From: Desulfobacteraceae bacterium
GTDB taxonomy: Bacteria; Desulfobacterota; Desulfobacteria; Desulfobacterales; Desulfosalsimonadaceae
Reading direction: 5' to 3'
Length of the DNA: 42,696 bases
Assembly: GCA_014237465.1 (NCBI GenBank)
Contig: JABZFM010000036.1
Coordinates: forward strand, 1-42,696
The notes beneath the pieces were generated by a model, which saw only the letters and a list, made by a program, of their open reading frames with translations, was not told where the DNA came from and ran no database searches. The position numbers and the translations under genes were made by a program. Shown one piece after another: positions 17,476 to 24,553 of this stretch. Within the stretch, counting starts at the first letter, position 1, and each line of letters opens with the position of its first letter.

Positions 17476-18825
17476 TTATACCAGGCCCTGATCCAGCATG
17501 GCATTAATGACTTTTACAAAACCGGCAATGTTGGCGCCTGCCATGTAATTGCCGGGGACACCGTATTCTGTAGCCGCATCCAGGCAACTCTGGTGAATAC
17601 TTTTCATTATTATTCTGAGACGGCTGTCCACTTCTTCCCTGGGCCAGCTCAGACGCATGCTGTTCTGGGCCATTTCAAGACCTGATACCGCCACACCACC
17701 GGCATTGGCTGCCTTGCCCGGAGCATACAGGAGTTTATTATTCAGAAAGACATCAATGGCATCCGGCGTTGAAGGCATGTTGGCTCCTTCACTAATTACT
17801 CTGACCCCATTTTTGACCAGGTTTTGTGCATCTTTTTTATTGATTTCGTTTTGTGTCGCACTTGGAAAGGCGCAGTCGGCCTTATGATTCCACAAGGGAT
17901 TAAAATCCAGAGTGGTGTCTGCATCTGTATAAACTGCTTCAGAATATTTATCAATGTATTCGCTGATCCTGCCGCGTTTGATATTTTTGAGTCTTTTAAC
18001 AAAGTCCAGTTTACTCCTGTCTATTCCCTCTTCATCATAAATATAGCCGGAGGAATCGGAAAGCGTTACCACTTTGCCGCCCAGTTCAATAATTTTCTCT
18101 ACAGTGAACTGTGCCACATTTCCTGAGCCTGATACCAGGCAGGTTTTGCCTTCAAGGGAATCATTCTGGGTGGCCAGCATTTCCTCAGCAAAATAAACAG
18201 CTCCGTATCCGGTTGCTTCAGGACGGATAAGGCTTCCGCCCCACCCCAGGCTCTTGCCGGTCAATACACCGGTGAATTCGTTGCTTAGTTTTTTGTACAT
18301 GCCAAAGAGATAACCGATTTCTCTGGCTCCCACACCAATATCGCCTGCAGGAATATCCGTATCCGGACCGATATGGCGGAAAAGCTCAGCCATAAAACTC
18401 TGGCAGAACCGCATGACTTCATTATCGGATTTTCCTTTGGGATCAAAATCCGACCCGCCTTTTCCTCCCCCCATGGACAGGGTGGTCAGGGCATTTTTAA
18501 AGACCTGTTCAAATGCCAAAAATTTGAGAATACTGAGGTTTACCGAAGGATGGAAACGCAGCCCACCTTTGTATGGACCGATTGCGCTGTTCATCTCTAT
18601 CCTGAATCCACGGTTTACCTGAACCTGGCCCTGGTCGTCCATCCATGGAACACGAAACATGATTACTCGCTCAGGTTCCGTAATTCTTTCAAGCACAGCA
18701 GCTTGCCGATATTCCGGATTTCGATCCAGAACAGGTTTGATGGTTTCAATTACCTCCTCTACTGCCTGATGAAACTCCTTTTCACCAGGATCCCTATCAA
18801 TTATCGATTTCATAATGTCAGACAT
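17476..18825 (-). CDS. gdhA: Glutamate dehydrogenase, NADP-type
   Basis: The 449-residue protein has PYKGGLRFHPSVN, MGGGKGGSDFDPKGKSDNE with the catalytic Lys, and a Rossmann region CLVSGSGNVAQFT. Length matches hexameric bacterial GdhA, which makes glutamate from 2-oxoglutarate and ammonium. The start is the ATG at 18825, placed after TAGGAGGTTGTTT; a TTG two codons upstream is inside the optimal spacing and not needed. It is the last of the minus-strand nitrogen block, 84 bp after the receiver-PPDK protein gene. Coenzyme type is inferred from family resemblance. Confidence 0.95.
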   Translation of the reverse strand: MSDIMKSIIDRDPGEKEFHQAVEEVIETIKPVLDRNPEYRQAAVLERITEPERVIMFRVPWMDDQGQVQVNRGFRIEMNSAIGPYKGGLRFHPSVNLSILKFLAFEQVFKNALTTLSMGGGKGGSDFDPKGKSDNEVMRFCQSFMAELFRHIGPDTDIPAGDIGVGAREIGYLFGMYKKLSNEFTGVLTGKSLGWGGSLIRPEATGYGAVYFAEEMLATQNDSLEGKTCLVSGSGNVAQFTVEKIIELGGKVVTLSDSSGYIYDEEGIDRSKLDFVKRLKNIKRGRISEYIDKYSEAVYTDADTTLDFNPLWNHKADCAFPSATQNEINKKDAQNLVKNGVRVISEGANMPSTPDAIDVFLNNKLLYAPGKAANAGGVAVSGLEMAQNSMRLSWPREEVDSRLRIIMKSIHQSCLDAATEYGVPGNYMAGANIAGFVKVINAMLDQGLV

Positions 18826-18909
18826 AAACAACCTCCTATTAATTATATTTTTTGATTGGAAATTAACTAGATTATTTATTTTAAATTTTCAAGTATTAAT
18901 TATATAACC

Positions 18910-21876
18910 TTACGGCCCAATGATTACACATTGAGATTTCTTGCCGTCAATCTTAATAATAAAGGGCTTTTCCAGTCTCACATGTCGCAGATAAGTCGTT
19001 TCCTGGATGACAGGCAAAGAACCGACCCATTTCCAGTCGAAAAAATCATCCGAGCCTTCAGTGACAGTAATGTAATGAATGCCCAGGGACGTGATGTTTT
19101 GAAAAAAGTGAGACCCTTGTGAAGGGTCTGCCTTTAGTTTTTCGTTTCTGAGTTCAATCATGGCGCCCACACCCGAAATGTCCTTCCATTGAACCGGTAT
19201 GCCCAGCCATCTGTCAGCAGACCCCCACCTTCCCGGTCCTATCAGGAGATATGGACGATTTCCTTTAAGCAAGCCGGTATTTACTCGGCCAATTTCCTCA
19301 GCGATCTTTACAGTCGCTTTTGCTTCAAAATCATCCGGCTTGACATAGACAATATCCGCAATTTCCTCGGTTTTTCCATTCCCAAGGGCCTGGGAGGAAC
19401 GACAAAACGCATTTTTAAACTCCTGGGGGGTAATCTGAACATCAAAGAGTTCTCTGTCTGCCACCATTGGCCTCATCTGAAGAAAATAGAAGTCGCTTTT
19501 GCGTTGTTTATCGGAACTTAGATTCACTGAAAATTCAATTTCAACGGGGCATCCCATGCCTTTGCGTCCCAGTTCCAGCAAATCAGACAATAATGAAGGC
19601 AGAGGGAATATATTATATTTTAATACCTGCGCAAATGTCATAATCTTGGGTCCGGGAATATAGGCCGAGTCACGTATACGATGCTCTTCAGCCACATAGG
19701 TGCTTGCGAGGGTCTTTACAGGAAATTCGCTTTCAGCATCATCTACTTCCCTTTTTTCCAAATTAGAATATTTCCGGAAGTTAAGATTGTCCGGATAATC
19801 CTTTATTTTTAGGGAATAGAAAAAACGCTGGGCATTTTCCAGGATGTCATCAACAGTTGAAAACTGGGGCGTAAGGTTTGGGTATTTGGGCGAAAAGCGT
19901 AAGGTCTTTTCTCCTTCAACAACGGTTTTGCCTAATCCTAAGGCAATATGGGTAATACCGTCTTCGGCTTTCATGTGCCCAACCGGATAAAAATTATGGG
20001 ATTGAGCCACGCCGGAAATAGCCGGATAAAAATAGTCCCCATATTCCTTTCCGGTAAGTTGCTGGATAATAACGGCCATTAATTCAGCCTGGGGCTGTTT
20101 TGAAGTGCTTCTGGTAAATGCCTTGGGACCTTCATAATAGGTGGAAGCATACACAAGCTTGATGGCTGTAATAAGATGCTTGAGTCGCACCAAAAGATCG
20201 GGATGGTTGTTGGGAATCATATAAGTCTGATAGAGCCCTGCATAGGGTTGGAATTGGGCATCTTCCAGCAGACTGGAAGAACGGACGGACAAGGGGATTT
20301 TGACCTGGGCCACAAGCTTTTCAAGGTCTTTTACCAGCCACTCCGGGATGTCTGCATTCAAAAAGCCCTCTGTTACTTCTTCATCAGTGAAATCGTCGCT
20401 GGCAAAATGTTTTAAATGATTTTGGGTTACAAAAGATTCAAAGCCATCAGTGGTGATAACCAGGGTCTTGGGAATTCTTATGTTGATTTCCGAATATTTA
20501 TCATGAATTGTATCATTTTCTTGAAGCATTGTAGACATAAAGGCAAGACCCCTGGCTTTACCCCCTAATGAACCATCACCGATCCTGAGAAAATCCATAA
20601 TGTACGGATCGTAATGATCGGCTTTAAACTTGAGCACAACACCTTTTTGTCGCCATCTTTGCAGTTCCCGGATGTTGGAAATGATATACTGCCGCATATC
20701 ATCAATATTACTGAAATCACTTGCCCTGACCTCACTGAATTTGGAGGCGAGAGCGATTTCAGAACGGGCCATAATCCAGTTGGAGAAGTGATCACGCTCT
20801 GCATGATAGAGAAGTGATTCATCAGGTATCTGATGAAGCTTTGCTTCAAGTGTTCGAAGGTCGGTAGCTCGCTCTATTTCCGTTCCGTCAGGCAGGCAAA
20901 AAATAAAATCTCCAAAGCCCAGGTGGGTCAGGAAAAAATCGTGCAGTTCTGCTAAGAAATCAGGGGAGTTTTTATCGAGGAATACTGCCGGAATTTGACC
21001 TGCCTTCACCCTGTTTCCAGACTCCGCACTCAATAGAAGGAGGGGAAGAAAGGGGAGTTGTTTTCTGATTTGAGAAAGCAGCCTAAATCCAGCGTCAGCG
21101 ACTATTTTACCGTTTTTCGGAATGCGGGTATCTGATATGACGCCAAGAAGAAAATCGTGGTACTTCTCGGAAAGCTCAAATGCCTCCTCATAGGTTTCAG
21201 CCAACAGTATTTTTGGTCTTGCCCGCATTTTGAGAAGCCGGTGTTCTTCGTTAAGGCCCACTTCCAGCACGGCCTGGGTCTGTCTGACGATCTCTTTGTA
21301 AATAAGGGGCAGGAAATAGGAAGAATAGACAGGGGAATCCTCCACCAGAATCAAAACACGCACCTGGGCCTTTTGTGTATCAAAATCGGCATTAAGGTGA
21401 TCTTCCGCGTTTTTTACAAGTGCCATAAGAAGATCGGAATTGCCTGACCAGACAAAGATTTTGTCGATTCCCTGACAATTCCTGTTTTCCGGAAGCGGAT
21501 AGATTCCCCTGATGCTGTGAGTCAAGAGAATTACAGGCAGGTCAGGCCTTACCTTTTTTATTTCCAGGCCCAGAGAGAAGGCATCCATCCCTTCAAGATG
21601 GGGCATGGTAATAACCATATCGAACTCTTTTTCTTTCAAGAGCGATAGTGCCCCGTGAGCCGAAGAGATGCGGGTCACCCTGGGGGGGAGGCTCAGATTT
21701 AATCCACTGTATTCATTTATAATCCTTGAGACAAGGCTCCCGTCTTCTTCCAGAATGAAAGCATCATAGGGACTGGAAACCATCAAAATCTCTCGCACCC
21801 TGATTTTCAAAAGCTCGTGGAATACTTTATGACGTGAATAGAATTCACTGGGCAGGTTATTGTTCTCTAAATCCAT
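18910..21876 (-). CDS. Hybrid protein: two receiver-like domains plus PEP/pyruvate-binding domain
   Basis: The protein has 988 residues. Residues about 27-150 and 172-315 are receiver-like. In the first the phospho-acceptor Asp is lost (VITMPHLEG); in the second DTRIP keeps Asp249. From about 420 follows a PPDK N-terminal (ATP-grasp) domain with GDGSLGGKARGLAF (434-447), VRSSSLLEDAQFQPYAG (531-547) and the end motif FLQMRPM. The phosphohistidine swivel and PEP-binding TIM barrel of PEP synthase are absent; instead there is a C-terminal segment with LIGPGRWGSADRW. It is therefore unlikely to make PEP by itself and may be a signalling phosphotransferase. It sits between glutamate synthase and gdhA. 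Confidence 0.85.
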   Translation of the reverse strand: MDLENNNLPSEFYSRHKVFHELLKIRVREILMVSSPYDAFILEEDGSLVSRIINEYSGLNLSLPPRVTRISSAHGALSLLKEKEFDMVITMPHLEGMDAFSLGLEIKKVRPDLPVILLTHSIRGIYPLPENRNCQGIDKIFVWSGNSDLLMALVKNAEDHLNADFDTQKAQVRVLILVEDSPVYSSYFLPLIYKEIVRQTQAVLEVGLNEEHRLLKMRARPKILLAETYEEAFELSEKYHDFLLGVISDTRIPKNGKIVADAGFRLLSQIRKQLPFLPLLLLSAESGNRVKAGQIPAVFLDKNSPDFLAELHDFFLTHLGFGDFIFCLPDGTEIERATDLRTLEAKLHQIPDESLLYHAERDHFSNWIMARSEIALASKFSEVRASDFSNIDDMRQYIISNIRELQRWRQKGVVLKFKADHYDPYIMDFLRIGDGSLGGKARGLAFMSTMLQENDTIHDKYSEINIRIPKTLVITTDGFESFVTQNHLKHFASDDFTDEEVTEGFLNADIPEWLVKDLEKLVAQVKIPLSVRSSSLLEDAQFQPYAGLYQTYMIPNNHPDLLVRLKHLITAIKLVYASTYYEGPKAFTRSTSKQPQAELMAVIIQQLTGKEYGDYFYPAISGVAQSHNFYPVGHMKAEDGITHIALGLGKTVVEGEKTLRFSPKYPNLTPQFSTVDDILENAQRFFYSLKIKDYPDNLNFRKYSNLEKREVDDAESEFPVKTLASTYVAEEHRIRDSAYIPGPKIMTFAQVLKYNIFPLPSLLSDLLELGRKGMGCPVEIEFSVNLSSDKQRKSDFYFLQMRPMVADRELFDVQITPQEFKNAFCRSSQALGNGKTEEIADIVYVKPDDFEAKATVKIAEEIGRVNTGLLKGNRPYLLIGPGRWGSADRWLGIPVQWKDISGVGAMIELRNEKLKADPSQGSHFFQNITSLGIHYITVTEGSDDFFDWKWVGSLPVIQETTYLRHVRLEKPFIIKIDGKKSQCVIIGP

Positions 21877-21997: not shown

Positions 21998-23581
21998 CTA
22001 AGAATCAATTATCTCTAAGGCTTCTTCTCTGTAAGCATCCATAACATAAGGGGTACCTGTGATTTTCGCACATTCTTCGGTAAGAGAGAATATGTCCTTT
22101 CTGCTGATGTATTGAACTTCCCAGTTCCTGGACCCGGCCATTATTTGCTGGAGCCCCACTTTTATTTTATCCGTTGCACTGAACAGACCAACAGCGCCTA
22201 ATGGCAGCTTGTCCGCTTCAGAGCCGTACTTTTCCTTCAGGACTTCGTAATTCATGAATATCTCTTCTTTTGTGGAACCGAATTTTGAGACCGTTGGCGG
22301 AAGTCCGCCATCTTCACCCCTTAGCCATTTTTCAGCATTTTTGCCCACCATGCCTGGAATCATCAAGGCACGTCCCATGCAAACAGCCTTGCAAAAAGGA
22401 GCTCCTAAGGCCAATGCCTTAAAGACATGGTCTTCAGAGGAAAATCCGCCCGCAAAGGCGATATCCGGAACCGGTTTTCCTGCTTTGGCCAAACGCTCAC
22501 ACAACTCGTACGCCATAGAATGTAAGTAAATAGCGGGAATGCCCCACTCGTTCATCATCCTCCAAGGGCTCATCCCTGTGCCGCCTGGGGCGCCATCTAT
22601 GGTCAAAAGATCGATTTTTGCATCGCTTGACCAGCGTATTGCCATGGCCAGCTCTCTCATTGGGTAAGCACCTGTTTTGAGGGTTACCCGCTTTGCGCCC
22701 AGTTTGCGCAGCCTTTCCACCTCGTTCATAAAGCCTTCCTGGTCAATAAATCCAAGACGCGAATGCCGTTCGAATTGCTTCAAAGGGCCTGCCTTGAAAG
22801 CTGCCTGGAAGGCCGGGTCTTCAGGGTCGGGCGTGACAATGTAGCCGCGTTTTTTCAGTTCAATGGCCCTATCAAGAGAGTTTACCTTGATTTCTCCGCC
22901 AATACACTTGGCACCCTGGCCCCACTTCAGCTCAATGGTTTCCACGCCTAATTTTTCTATGACATACTCTGCCACGCCGTTTCGCGTATCCTCAACGTTC
23001 ATCTGGACAAGGATATCCCCATATCCTTCATGGTAACGACGGTATTCTTTTACACGCCGGTCCATCTCAGGAGAATTTTTGATCTTGCCATCACTATTGA
23101 GTTCCAATTCCGGATCAATGCCGCATACATTTTCACCGCAGACCAGGCTGATGCCGCTAATGGCAGCGCCGATTGCAAAATGTTCCCAGTTTTTACGCGC
23201 AATGTCGGTGCTTCCAAGTGCGCCGGTAAACATGGGAACCTTCATTTTAACCTTATTGGTGACGCCATAGGACGTTTCAGTGTTGACCGACGGAAAGGTA
23301 GCCTTATCCGGATTTGCCTCCACGCCCTTTGCGCCCATGGCATACCCCATAATATTCAGATGGGAATAATCAACAGGGTAATCCTTATCCGCACCGGCAG
23401 TTATACTCCCGAAAGGTTCAGGATAAAGGAGTTCCCTTCCCCGAAAAGTGGCCCTGAACATGTCGCAATTTCCCTTACATCCATCGACACATTTGCTGCA
23501 TATGCCGGACTGGGGAGCAACATTTCTGGAACGATTTTTGGTTTGAAGTGCTTCATTTGCGTTTGGTCTTTGCAGGTTCAT
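21998..23581 (-). CDS. GltB-like FMN-dependent glutamate synthase domain protein
   Basis: The 527-residue protein carries the glutamate synthase FMN/Fe-S core: LTIDGAPGGTGMSPWRMMNE, IAFAGGFSSEDHVFKALALGA and CKAVCMGRALMIPGMVGKN. An N-terminal Cys cluster is CSKCVDGCKGNC (about residues 24-35). It has no glutaminase domain, so ammonia or a separate amidotransferase subunit would be needed, as in archaeal-type GltB systems. The frame is open further upstream, but the ATG at 23581 follows AAGGAGGATGTTGATA and starts the protein; upstream codons lie in the leader hairpins. Expression is very likely governed by the ANTAR leader at 23613-23694. Confidence 0.9.
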   Translation of the reverse strand: MNLQRPNANEALQTKNRSRNVAPQSGICSKCVDGCKGNCDMFRATFRGRELLYPEPFGSITAGADKDYPVDYSHLNIMGYAMGAKGVEANPDKATFPSVNTETSYGVTNKVKMKVPMFTGALGSTDIARKNWEHFAIGAAISGISLVCGENVCGIDPELELNSDGKIKNSPEMDRRVKEYRRYHEGYGDILVQMNVEDTRNGVAEYVIEKLGVETIELKWGQGAKCIGGEIKVNSLDRAIELKKRGYIVTPDPEDPAFQAAFKAGPLKQFERHSRLGFIDQEGFMNEVERLRKLGAKRVTLKTGAYPMRELAMAIRWSSDAKIDLLTIDGAPGGTGMSPWRMMNEWGIPAIYLHSMAYELCERLAKAGKPVPDIAFAGGFSSEDHVFKALALGAPFCKAVCMGRALMIPGMVGKNAEKWLRGEDGGLPPTVSKFGSTKEEIFMNYEVLKEKYGSEADKLPLGAVGLFSATDKIKVGLQQIMAGSRNWEVQYISRKDIFSLTEECAKITGTPYVMDAYREEALEIIDS

Positions 23582-23612
23582 TATCAACATCCTCCTTGTT
23601 GTAAAAATTAAT

Positions 23613-23647
23613 AAAAAAAAAGCGCCTTCCCCAAGTGGGCAAGACGC
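23613..23647 (-). terminator. Intrinsic terminator in the glutamate synthase leader
   Basis: On the minus strand GCGTCTT (23647-23641) pairs with AAGGCGC (23628-23622), and CCC with GGG, around a small loop (one bulged G), followed by nine T (23621-23613). It ends 31 nt before the start codon. Its left arm is shared with hairpin P2, so the two cannot form together. Confidence 0.85.
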
Positions 23648-23694
23648 CTTTGTCTCATGTTTTTCTAAAAATCTTCGCACACCATTGTGCAAGA
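23641..23694 (-). promoter_or_regulatory. ANTAR-type two-hexaloop antiterminator RNA
   Basis: P1 (23692-23674) is TTGCAC-AATGGT-GTGCGAA and P2 (23656-23641) is GAGAC-AAAGGC-GTCTT. Each has a six-nt loop with A at position 1 and G at position 4, which is the conserved signature of ANTAR targets. P2 shares its 3' arm with the terminator that follows. The layout P1, 17-nt linker, P2 overlapping the terminator is that of ANTAR-controlled leaders. The ANTAR gene lies immediately upstream on the same strand. Confidence 0.88.
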
Positions 23695-23701
23695 ATTTAA
23701 T

Positions 23702-23730
23702 TAATTAGCAACATTCATCCTGTTTGTCAA
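23702..23730 (-). promoter_or_regulatory. Predicted sigma-70 promoter of the glutamate synthase gene
   Basis: On the minus strand TTGACA (23730-23725) and TAATTA (23707-23702) are separated by 17 bp. Transcription would start near 23695, at the first base of hairpin P1, so the leader begins directly with the ANTAR motif. Confidence 0.7.
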
Positions 23731-23809
23731 ACAAAAAAAGAACGACTATTAGCTGCCAGGACACTAACCTTATGAAATTATATCTTTTTATCAGGCTCCA
23801 AATTTTAAG

Positions 23810-24553
23810 TTATTTCAGGGCATGCGGTATGCTGGAATAATACCCTAAATCCTCTGAAAGCAGGATCGCCTCGGCCACTTGGCGCTTTGATTTTCGGGAG
23901 TCCATGCTGCGTTTTTGCAGCCATCGAAACGCATCCTCCCCATTCATGTTGCGCTGCCGCATTAGAATCTCTTTTGCACGTTCAATAAGCTTGCGGGTCT
24001 CTAATTCTTCCTGTATCAATTTGGCTTTTACAATTAGCTCCGTGTTGAAAATTGCCACCGCCGCCTGGTTCGCAACCGTTGTCAGGACATGGATTTCTGT
24101 TTTCGAAAAATCATAGGGAACCGAGGTGAAACAATTCAGCACCCCGATAATTTTTTCATCCTGAAGTTTTAACGGCACTCCCACCATAGACACAAGGCTG
24201 AGTTTTTTTGCCATTTCCTTTTCCTTGAAACGCCGGCTGCGCATCACATTTTTAATGACAAGGGGTTTTTTAGTGGTCACCACATGTCCGACAACACCTT
24301 CATTCAGATTTAACGAACGGTCTTTTACATATTCGGGTTCAATGGCCTGGGTGGCCTTGAGCCGGATTTTCGGCGGGTTTTCATTTTCATCGATCAGCCA
24401 TAAGGAACAGATTTCCGCGCCGATCATTTTAGCGGTCAGCAAAACAATCAGTTTGAGCAGATCTTCATGAAACAGGTCGGATGTGATGGCCCGGCTGATA
24501 TCCATCAGGGTTTTAATGTATTTATCGTGCGGTTGCGATTCTGTATTTTTCAT
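23810..24553 (-). CDS. GAF-ANTAR RNA-binding antitermination regulator
   Basis: The 247-residue protein has an N-terminal GAF domain (about 15-172: LVSMVGVPLKLQDEKIIGVL and FSKTEIHVLTTVANQAAVAI). A short coiled linker leads to an ANTAR domain (about 183-236: LIERAKEILMRQRNMNGEDA, WLQKRSM and KRQVAEAILL). ANTAR dimers bind two hexaloop hairpins and prevent terminator formation. The nearest downstream leader has exactly such hairpins. The GAF domain implies a small-molecule or redox signal rather than the usual receiver phosphorylation; its ligand is unknown. No strong ribosome site is seen before the ATG. Confidence 0.93.
   Translation of the reverse strand: MKNTESQPHDKYIKTLMDISRAITSDLFHEDLLKLIVLLTAKMIGAEICSLWLIDENENPPKIRLKATQAIEPEYVKDRSLNLNEGVVGHVVTTKKPLVIKNVMRSRRFKEKEMAKKLSLVSMVGVPLKLQDEKIIGVLNCFTSVPYDFSKTEIHVLTTVANQAAVAIFNTELIVKAKLIQEELETRKLIERAKEILMRQRNMNGEDAFRWLQKRSMDSRKSKRQVAEAILLSEDLGYYSSIPHALK

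Follow-up and report, generated by a model that had tools for sequence, protein, structure and literature searches.

A probable ANTAR antitermination circuit with a GAF sensor before a glutamate-synthase-like gene in a Desulfobacteraceae bacterium

The leader RNA of a gltB-like gene and the GAF-ANTAR gene that neighbours it in a Desulfobacteraceae bacterium can be read, with high confidence, as an ANTAR transcription-antitermination circuit, which in this genome very probably comprises one regulator and one target. The locus lies in a window of 42,696 nucleotides (the whole stretch of DNA analysed, to which all positions refer unless a locus is named), and its elements follow one another on the minus strand in the order GAF-ANTAR gene, promoter, hairpin P1, hairpin P2 with the terminator, gltB-like gene, receiver-PPDK_N gene and gdhA. 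The RNA elements, the mutual exclusion of P2 and terminator, the conservation, the covariation and the co-occurrence with ANTAR genes were computed; binding, the direction of control and the signal are what we infer.

The locus and its leader RNA

23810..24553, minus strand: GAF-ANTAR one-component regulator, 247 aa (Pfam PF13185, E 1.2e-19; PF03861, E 1.3e-19)
24050-24466, minus strand: GAF domain, residues 30-168 (Pfam PF13185)
23861-24013, minus strand: ANTAR domain, residues 181-231 (Pfam PF03861)
23725..23730, minus strand: predicted -35 box TTGACA of the gltB-like gene (sequence reading)
23702..23707, minus strand: predicted -10 box TAATTA, 17-nt spacer (sequence reading)
23669..23698, minus strand: P1 hairpin, 6-bp core stem plus lower stem, loop AAUGGU at 23686-23681 (sequence, folding, covariation)
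23692-23675, minus strand: P1 core stem alone (sequence reading)
23641..23656, minus strand: P2 hairpin, loop AAAGGC at 23651-23646 (sequence, growing-chain folding)
23613..23651, minus strand: intrinsic terminator, stem 23651-23622, nine U/T at 23621-23613 (sequence, folding, pairing in 47 leaders)
23591..23597, minus strand: Shine-Dalgarno sequence AAGGAGG (sequence reading)
21998..23581, minus strand: gltB-like gene, glutamate-synthase FMN-domain family, 527 aa (PF01645 partial, E 4.5e-16)
18910..21876, minus strand: gene for a receiver + PPDK_N protein (Pfam domains)
17476..18831, minus strand: gdhA, NADP glutamate dehydrogenase (NF006929, E 1.5e-227)

Translation of the gltB-like gene probably begins with the ATG at 23581, which has GGAGG 9 nt before it; the TTG at 23692, where the program-called open reading frame of this gene begins, falls inside P1. 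The promoter sequence read in the first-pass annotation, TTGACA and TAATTA at a spacing of 17 nt, is indeed present, and 46 of 47 related leaders (the window's included) carry TTGAC no more than 110 nt upstream of their P1 loop, as against 77 of 940 mononucleotide shuffles. The pair is not listed by a consensus promoter scan that demands a T at the last -10 position. An automatic terminator scan lists P1 and not the actual terminator, and a search of the window against Rfam at gathering scores gave no match.

The same annotation had described P1 with the loop AAUGGU, P2 with the loop AAAGGC and a terminator made of GCGTCTT and AAGGCGC followed by nine U, and these details of the sequence are correct. 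The 5' arm of the terminator takes up the whole P2 loop together with the P2 3' arm, its 3' arm is AAGGCGC and the nine U follow; thus, P2 and the terminator cannot coexist. Folding of the full leader gives -31.3 kcal/mol with a z of -4.70, a value equalled by none of 200 shuffles, and in folding of the growing transcript P2 is formed, along with P1, at 60–72 nt and is lost to the terminator by 76–80 nt. That both loops have six nucleotides with A1 and G4, as had also been claimed, is true of P1 by the ANTAR convention only, since A1 and U6 pair in the predicted fold and leave four unpaired bases; the loop AAUGGU is found in just one of the 47 leaders, so this closure is a detail of the window leader. 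With P1 counted by that convention, the leader carries the two hairpins with six-base loops and A1 and G4 by which ANTAR RNAs are recognised, and its P2 overlaps an intrinsic terminator, which is a further mark of such RNAs. The linker between P1 and P2 measures 18 nt when stems of 6 and 5 bp are taken, and 12 nt with the full stems.

In the circuit proposed here, transcription would start a few nucleotides upstream of P1. In the default state, the terminator would take over the P2 sequence and RNA polymerase would stop before the gltB-like gene; with the GAF domain in its active state, dimeric ANTAR domains would bind the loops of P1 and P2, the bound P2 would stay folded, the terminator would fail to form and the gltB-like gene would be transcribed.

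The antitermination mechanism is known from other bacteria, and the GAF-ANTAR type of sensor looks little studied. The dual-hexaloop rule was established by Ramesh et al. 2012 (PMC3369931). A parallel might be drawn with EutV and the eut leaders of Enterococcus faecalis, which likewise have dual hexaloops with A1 and G4, a P2 embedded in a terminator and an ANTAR output (PMC3369931, PMC8934654); the circuit described here differs in that a GAF domain replaces the receiver, the linker is longer when core stems are counted (5–12 nt in the E. faecalis eut leaders, where 14 nt drastically reduced induction; PMC3369931), the P1 stem is longer in many leaders and the position of EutV E160 holds a G or an A in nearly all sequences. 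ANTAR RNAs have also been predicted (PMC3369931) in Desulfotomaculum reducens, where they precede glutamate synthase genes, in D. acetoxidans, where nitrogen genes follow, and in Pelobacter carbinolicus, where nitrogenase genes do. These predictions resemble the present case in the logic of the RNA and the kind of target gene, whereas here the GAF-ANTAR gene adjoins the target, and many Desulfobacterales share this pair. Of the earlier suggestion that a link from a GAF signal to glutamate synthase may be new, the RNA-target part had thus been anticipated in D. reducens; the sensor part fares better, in that the GAF-ANTAR architecture is listed in the 2012 paper and stated there to be uncharacterised (PMC3369931). 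A further parallel is NasR of Klebsiella oxytoca, a NIT-ANTAR protein that is also a one-component regulator with RNA binding controlled by a small molecule (proposed, in the present case) and a nitrogen target; its NIT domain senses nitrate, whereas the GAF domain here has candidate ligands only (PMC7496416).

In a literature search, no title or abstract start among the matches listed reports this circuit, or FlpD-MetV-MetF (see below) as an ANTAR target; most subscription journals lie outside its coverage, and such sites may stand in the supplementary tables of PMC3369931. The locus offers a clean test case, with one regulator and one target that are adjacent and small enough to be rebuilt in an E. 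coli reporter, and the regulon of the relatives, FlpD-MetV-MetF included, could reveal which signal is read by the GAF domain and whether ANTAR control is tied to nitrogen.

Target genes in the window and in relatives

The name glutamate-synthase-like is the most that the evidence allows for the target protein, because its match to PF01645 is partial and searches of the genome gave no amidotransferase partner. The glutamate synthase domain is there, partially covered (profile positions 186–309 of 369, E 4.5e-16), and the 527-aa protein is the single PF01645 match in the genome. The GOGAT amidotransferase domain GATase_2 (PF00310) has no match in this 99.96%-complete genome, and the GATase/GXGXG subunit of relatives finds only a match of E 1.1e-4, to its GXGXG part; the amidotransferase search consisted of these two queries. 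Where the first-pass annotation spoke of an ANTAR circuit controlling a glutamate synthase, the circuit is supported by conservation and co-occurrence, and the name of the enzyme by the partial domain match. The protein may use ammonia, may use another amidotransferase or may do something else. The gltB-like gene was probably exchanged while the circuit stayed, since its product is closer to those of other families (87–90% identity to those of L165, L172 and L182) than to those within its own genus (51–54%), whereas the ANTAR protein follows the genus (78–84% identity).

Beside gdhA and the gltB-like gene, at 18910-21876, a receiver domain is fused to PPDK_N (ATP-grasp) in a protein that has no match above cut-off in NCBIfam. 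Its gene possibly belongs to the same operon as the gltB-like gene. A homologue (76.8% identity over 181 aa) has an ANTAR leader of its own in L077, and a gdhA homologue is preceded by an ANTAR leader in L162.

Relatives were gathered as 80 loci from named genomes, each with a GAF-ANTAR relative, and 21 close-relative loci of the family (L003-L023), the two sets partly overlapping; with the window, 51 loci have a gltB-like gene downstream on the same strand, at a distance of 1.8–3.6 kb in four of them, and correspond to 47 distinct leaders. Alignment A1 comprises 47 of 49 extracted leaders (45 gltB-like leaders, L063 before GltB and L077 before receiver-PPDK); the two dropped were L043, whose terminator carries a long insert, and repeat two of L056, and L104 was left unextracted because its P1 lies far from P2. 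A covariance model was built from these 47 leaders, the window's included. Its search of the genome itself gave one strong site, the window leader (E 1.2e-12), with the next match at E 1.02; the matches at E 1.02 and 4.18 lack a proper P1-P2-terminator and were not counted as targets.

Among relatives, 84 model matches could be classed by the gene downstream as 54 gltB-like, 12 FlpD, 5 GATase/GXGXG, 1 gdhA, 1 GltB, 1 receiver-PPDK and 10 other, a tally in which L167 is classed as other though a gltB-like gene (69%) is present and its flank ends early, L186 counts as gltB-like on a weak match with a broken frame, L168 and L196 represent a single locus, and L142 (G030, E 1.9e-4) is kept as other on account of a poor P1. 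A gltB-like, GATase, GltB or gdhA gene follows in 61 of the 84. From the matches of the phylum scan, the loci of 30 of 60 were examined, 28 of them new. Individual cases include an ANTAR-type leader before a GltB whose domains are GATase_2, central and synthase (L063), one before a P-II gene (L178) and one before a class-IV aminotransferase gene (L215). The training set of the model was without FlpD, GATase, gdhA and P-II leaders, and included L063 and L077. As a side observation, the model also matches a P2 of the GGCAAAGGCGCC type in other families of the phylum (L174, L179, L184, L189); in three of these loci (L174, L179, L189) a predicted exported protein of 252–261 aa follows P2, porin-like by our reading and with no Pfam match.

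The one real surprise is FlpD-MetV-MetF, a methylenetetrahydrofolate reductase module and thus an unexpected target outside nitrogen metabolism. FlpD (PF02662; 134–161 aa) lies downstream of an ANTAR-type leader in 12 genomes, and is followed by MetV in all of 17 loci and by MetF in 14, the other three loci ending first; the 17 loci span the 12 genomes, with some places represented twice. The leaders, all model matches, are L062:6577-7083, L068:1843-2392, L084:6580-7087, L091:5617-6128, L094:5654-6162, L105:7558-8066, L195, L204, L185, L211, L214 and L217. When the 12 are aligned, both hairpins and the terminator are present throughout, and A1 and G4 of P1 in 11 of them; L217 has an A at position 4 and an interrupted U run. 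The sampling bears on this count, as 20 genomes were picked by hand from the 80 loci, six for a known FlpD site and three (L063, L066, L077) for a known site; among the remaining 11, an FlpD site is present in five, and L041 and L102 have no match at all. In the even draw across the phylum, FlpD accounts for 1 of the 28 new loci.

The GAF-ANTAR protein and its possible signal

The ANTAR domain of the 247-aa protein scores 70.2 bits against PF03861 (cut-off 27.3), and a Pfam search gives no receiver domain. The first-pass annotation had made this the only ANTAR gene of the window, directly upstream of the leader and with a GAF domain in place of a receiver, and the observation extends further, the gene at 23810-24553 being the sole PF03861 match in the whole 5.09-Mb genome.

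Compared with the RNA contacts of EutV, the window protein is identical at R142, K143, K149, M172 and R175, and differs elsewhere, with F at Y164, R at K147, D at N173, G at E160, Q at R168 and S at R177; by alignment mapping, EutV E160 corresponds to G205 and EutV R168 to Q213. In the 85 GAF-ANTAR sequences (the window's and 84 others), the five identical residues are invariant, the Y164 position is Y or F in 75 and H in 10, the E160 position is G or A in 81, and the R168 position is Q in 70. In EutV, for which a structure with RNA is available, changing E160 to alanine costs 60-fold in affinity (PMC8934654). The replacement of EutV E160 and R168 is one of the points against the circuit, along with a linker above the eut range by core stems and the presence of the RNA without ANTAR in some genomes. 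More tentatively, the GAF-ANTAR metabolite sensor might be seen as a widespread RNA switch of the phylum that mostly governs ammonia assimilation (gltB-like gene, GATase subunit, gdhA), has in several lineages come to govern the FlpD-MetV-MetF one-carbon module as well, and recognises hexaloops without the G4-reading glutamate of EutV; we consider this broader reading possible rather than likely. In some relatives, the ANTAR gene has an in-frame TGA.

The GAF part finds as its best PDB match the PEP-protein phosphotransferase 3ci6 (E 1.1e-12), which we take to be PtsP, then GAF domains of cyclic-nucleotide phosphodiesterases and others. In NCBIfam, it is led by NifA (TIGR01817, E 2.3e-16) and PEP-phosphotransferase (NF008283, E 3.7e-12), both far below the full-length cut-offs. 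Our best guess for the signal would be nitrogen status, as glutamine or 2-oxoglutarate, because the GAF domain of EI-Ntr is reported to bind glutamine (PMC4848567) and that of NifA 2-oxoglutarate (PMC8219145). The guess is a weak one because cyclic-nucleotide phosphodiesterase GAF domains are also among the PDB matches, and resemblance between GAF domains says little about what they bind. The odds are about even that the circuit is real and the GAF domain senses some other signal, be it redox, one-carbon or energy, a reading that concerns the signal only and is compatible with the circuit as proposed. It draws on the cysteines C49 and C141, kept in 85 and 84 of the 85 sequences, on the target outside nitrogen metabolism in the 12 FlpD-MetV-MetF genomes, and on Q69, Y75, R79, K110 and K112, which are invariant in all 85 and have no identical counterparts in the PEP-phosphotransferase GAF alignment; it has to contend with the prevalence of glutamate-synthase-type genes and gdhA among the classed targets (61 of 84) and with the nitrogen-sensing proteins among the best GAF matches.

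Co-occurrence and conservation of the leader

The distribution of the RNA follows that of the ANTAR domain. Among 36 genomes of the family, the RNA is found in 24 and ANTAR in 21, with both in 20, the RNA only in four, ANTAR only in one (G019) and neither in 11; ANTAR is thus present in 20 of 24 RNA-positive and 1 of 12 RNA-negative genomes. Across 297 genomes of the phylum, taken by an even draw and scored for the RNA with stricter filters than in the family scan, the RNA is found in 53, an ANTAR domain in 125 and both in 50. ANTAR-bearing genomes, where an ANTAR RNA is to be expected, hence make up 50 of the 53 RNA-positive as against 75 of the 244 RNA-negative genomes (Fisher p 1.1e-18, kinship ignored), the latter 75 having ANTAR without a match to this RNA model.

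No ANTAR domain was detected in four RNA-positive genomes of the family (G017, G027, G031, G033) and three of the 297 of the phylum (G329, G038, G149). G031 has a truncated ANTAR gene at a contig end; in G027, which is 98% complete, two good RNA sites are present and no ANTAR domain was found. As an observation apart, G027 (L152) and G033 (L153), neither with a detected ANTAR domain, each have two ANTAR RNAs, ahead of both glutamate-synthase subunits. These RNA-positive genomes, 4 of 36 and 3 of 297, would suit an account in which the hairpins are real and something else reads the leader (another RNA-binding protein, or the RNA alone), the ANTAR gene being adjacent by chance, as would the G or A at the E160 position in 81 of 85 sequences. 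This account is nonetheless very improbable in view of the strong co-occurrence of RNA and ANTAR, the dual hexaloops with A1 and G4, which are a known ANTAR signature (PMC3369931), and the placement of the RNA, which in many genomes directly follows the ANTAR gene and in G020 and G026 is present along with it although the two lie on different contigs.

The ANTAR circuit is also favoured by conservation of its RNA. The P2 pattern is present in 51 of 51 loci with GAF-ANTAR and gltB-like genes, and a P1 candidate 20–75 nt before P2 in 50 of 51; absence of such conservation in homologous leaders had been named beforehand as the finding that would speak against the circuit. The exception is L104 (L104:1831-2043), where an insertion puts P1 far beyond its usual distance from P2 and so offers a natural test of the rule on linker length. 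A strict dual-hexaloop scan allowing no mismatches is positive for 31 of 104 leader entries, the window among them (the 31 include three copies of the window, and the scan misses many related leaders), and for none of 520 mononucleotide shuffles.

In alignment A1, the invariance of GAC..GTC and G4 in P2 and of A1 and G4 in P1 is no evidence, since the extraction pattern required them. What can be read from the 47 leaders is the pairing: in the P1 core, 4 of 6 pairs change on both sides, rising to 9 of 11 once the lower stem is counted, and P1 and P2 together have 56 cells with both-side changes as against 24.2 in shuffles; three of the five P2 pairs never vary, and little covariation signal comes from P2. 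In the terminator helix, 98.1% of the cells over 10 pairs are paired. That the leader is no more than a common terminator or attenuator in which hexaloops seem to appear by chance, without regulation by a hairpin-binding protein, is the least probable reading of all, for although the terminator by itself constrains the P2 loop and 3' arm, so that P2 conservation is partly a by-product, P1 covaries outside the terminator, the P2 5' arm GAC, also outside it, is present in all 51 gltB-like loci, and the strict scan separates leaders from shuffles.

Across A1, the commonest loops are AAUGGC for P1 (23 of 47) and AAAGGC for P2 (29 of 47), and the P2 loop starts with G in three of the 47; the linker spans 10–29 nt, with a median of 18. 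Variations on the arrangement are seen in L056 (L056:3674-3822), where one P1 is followed by two P2/terminator units in tandem, and in L003, L005, L007 and L009, of the same genus, where by eye a further small hairpin with a six-base A1/G4 loop seems to follow the terminator.
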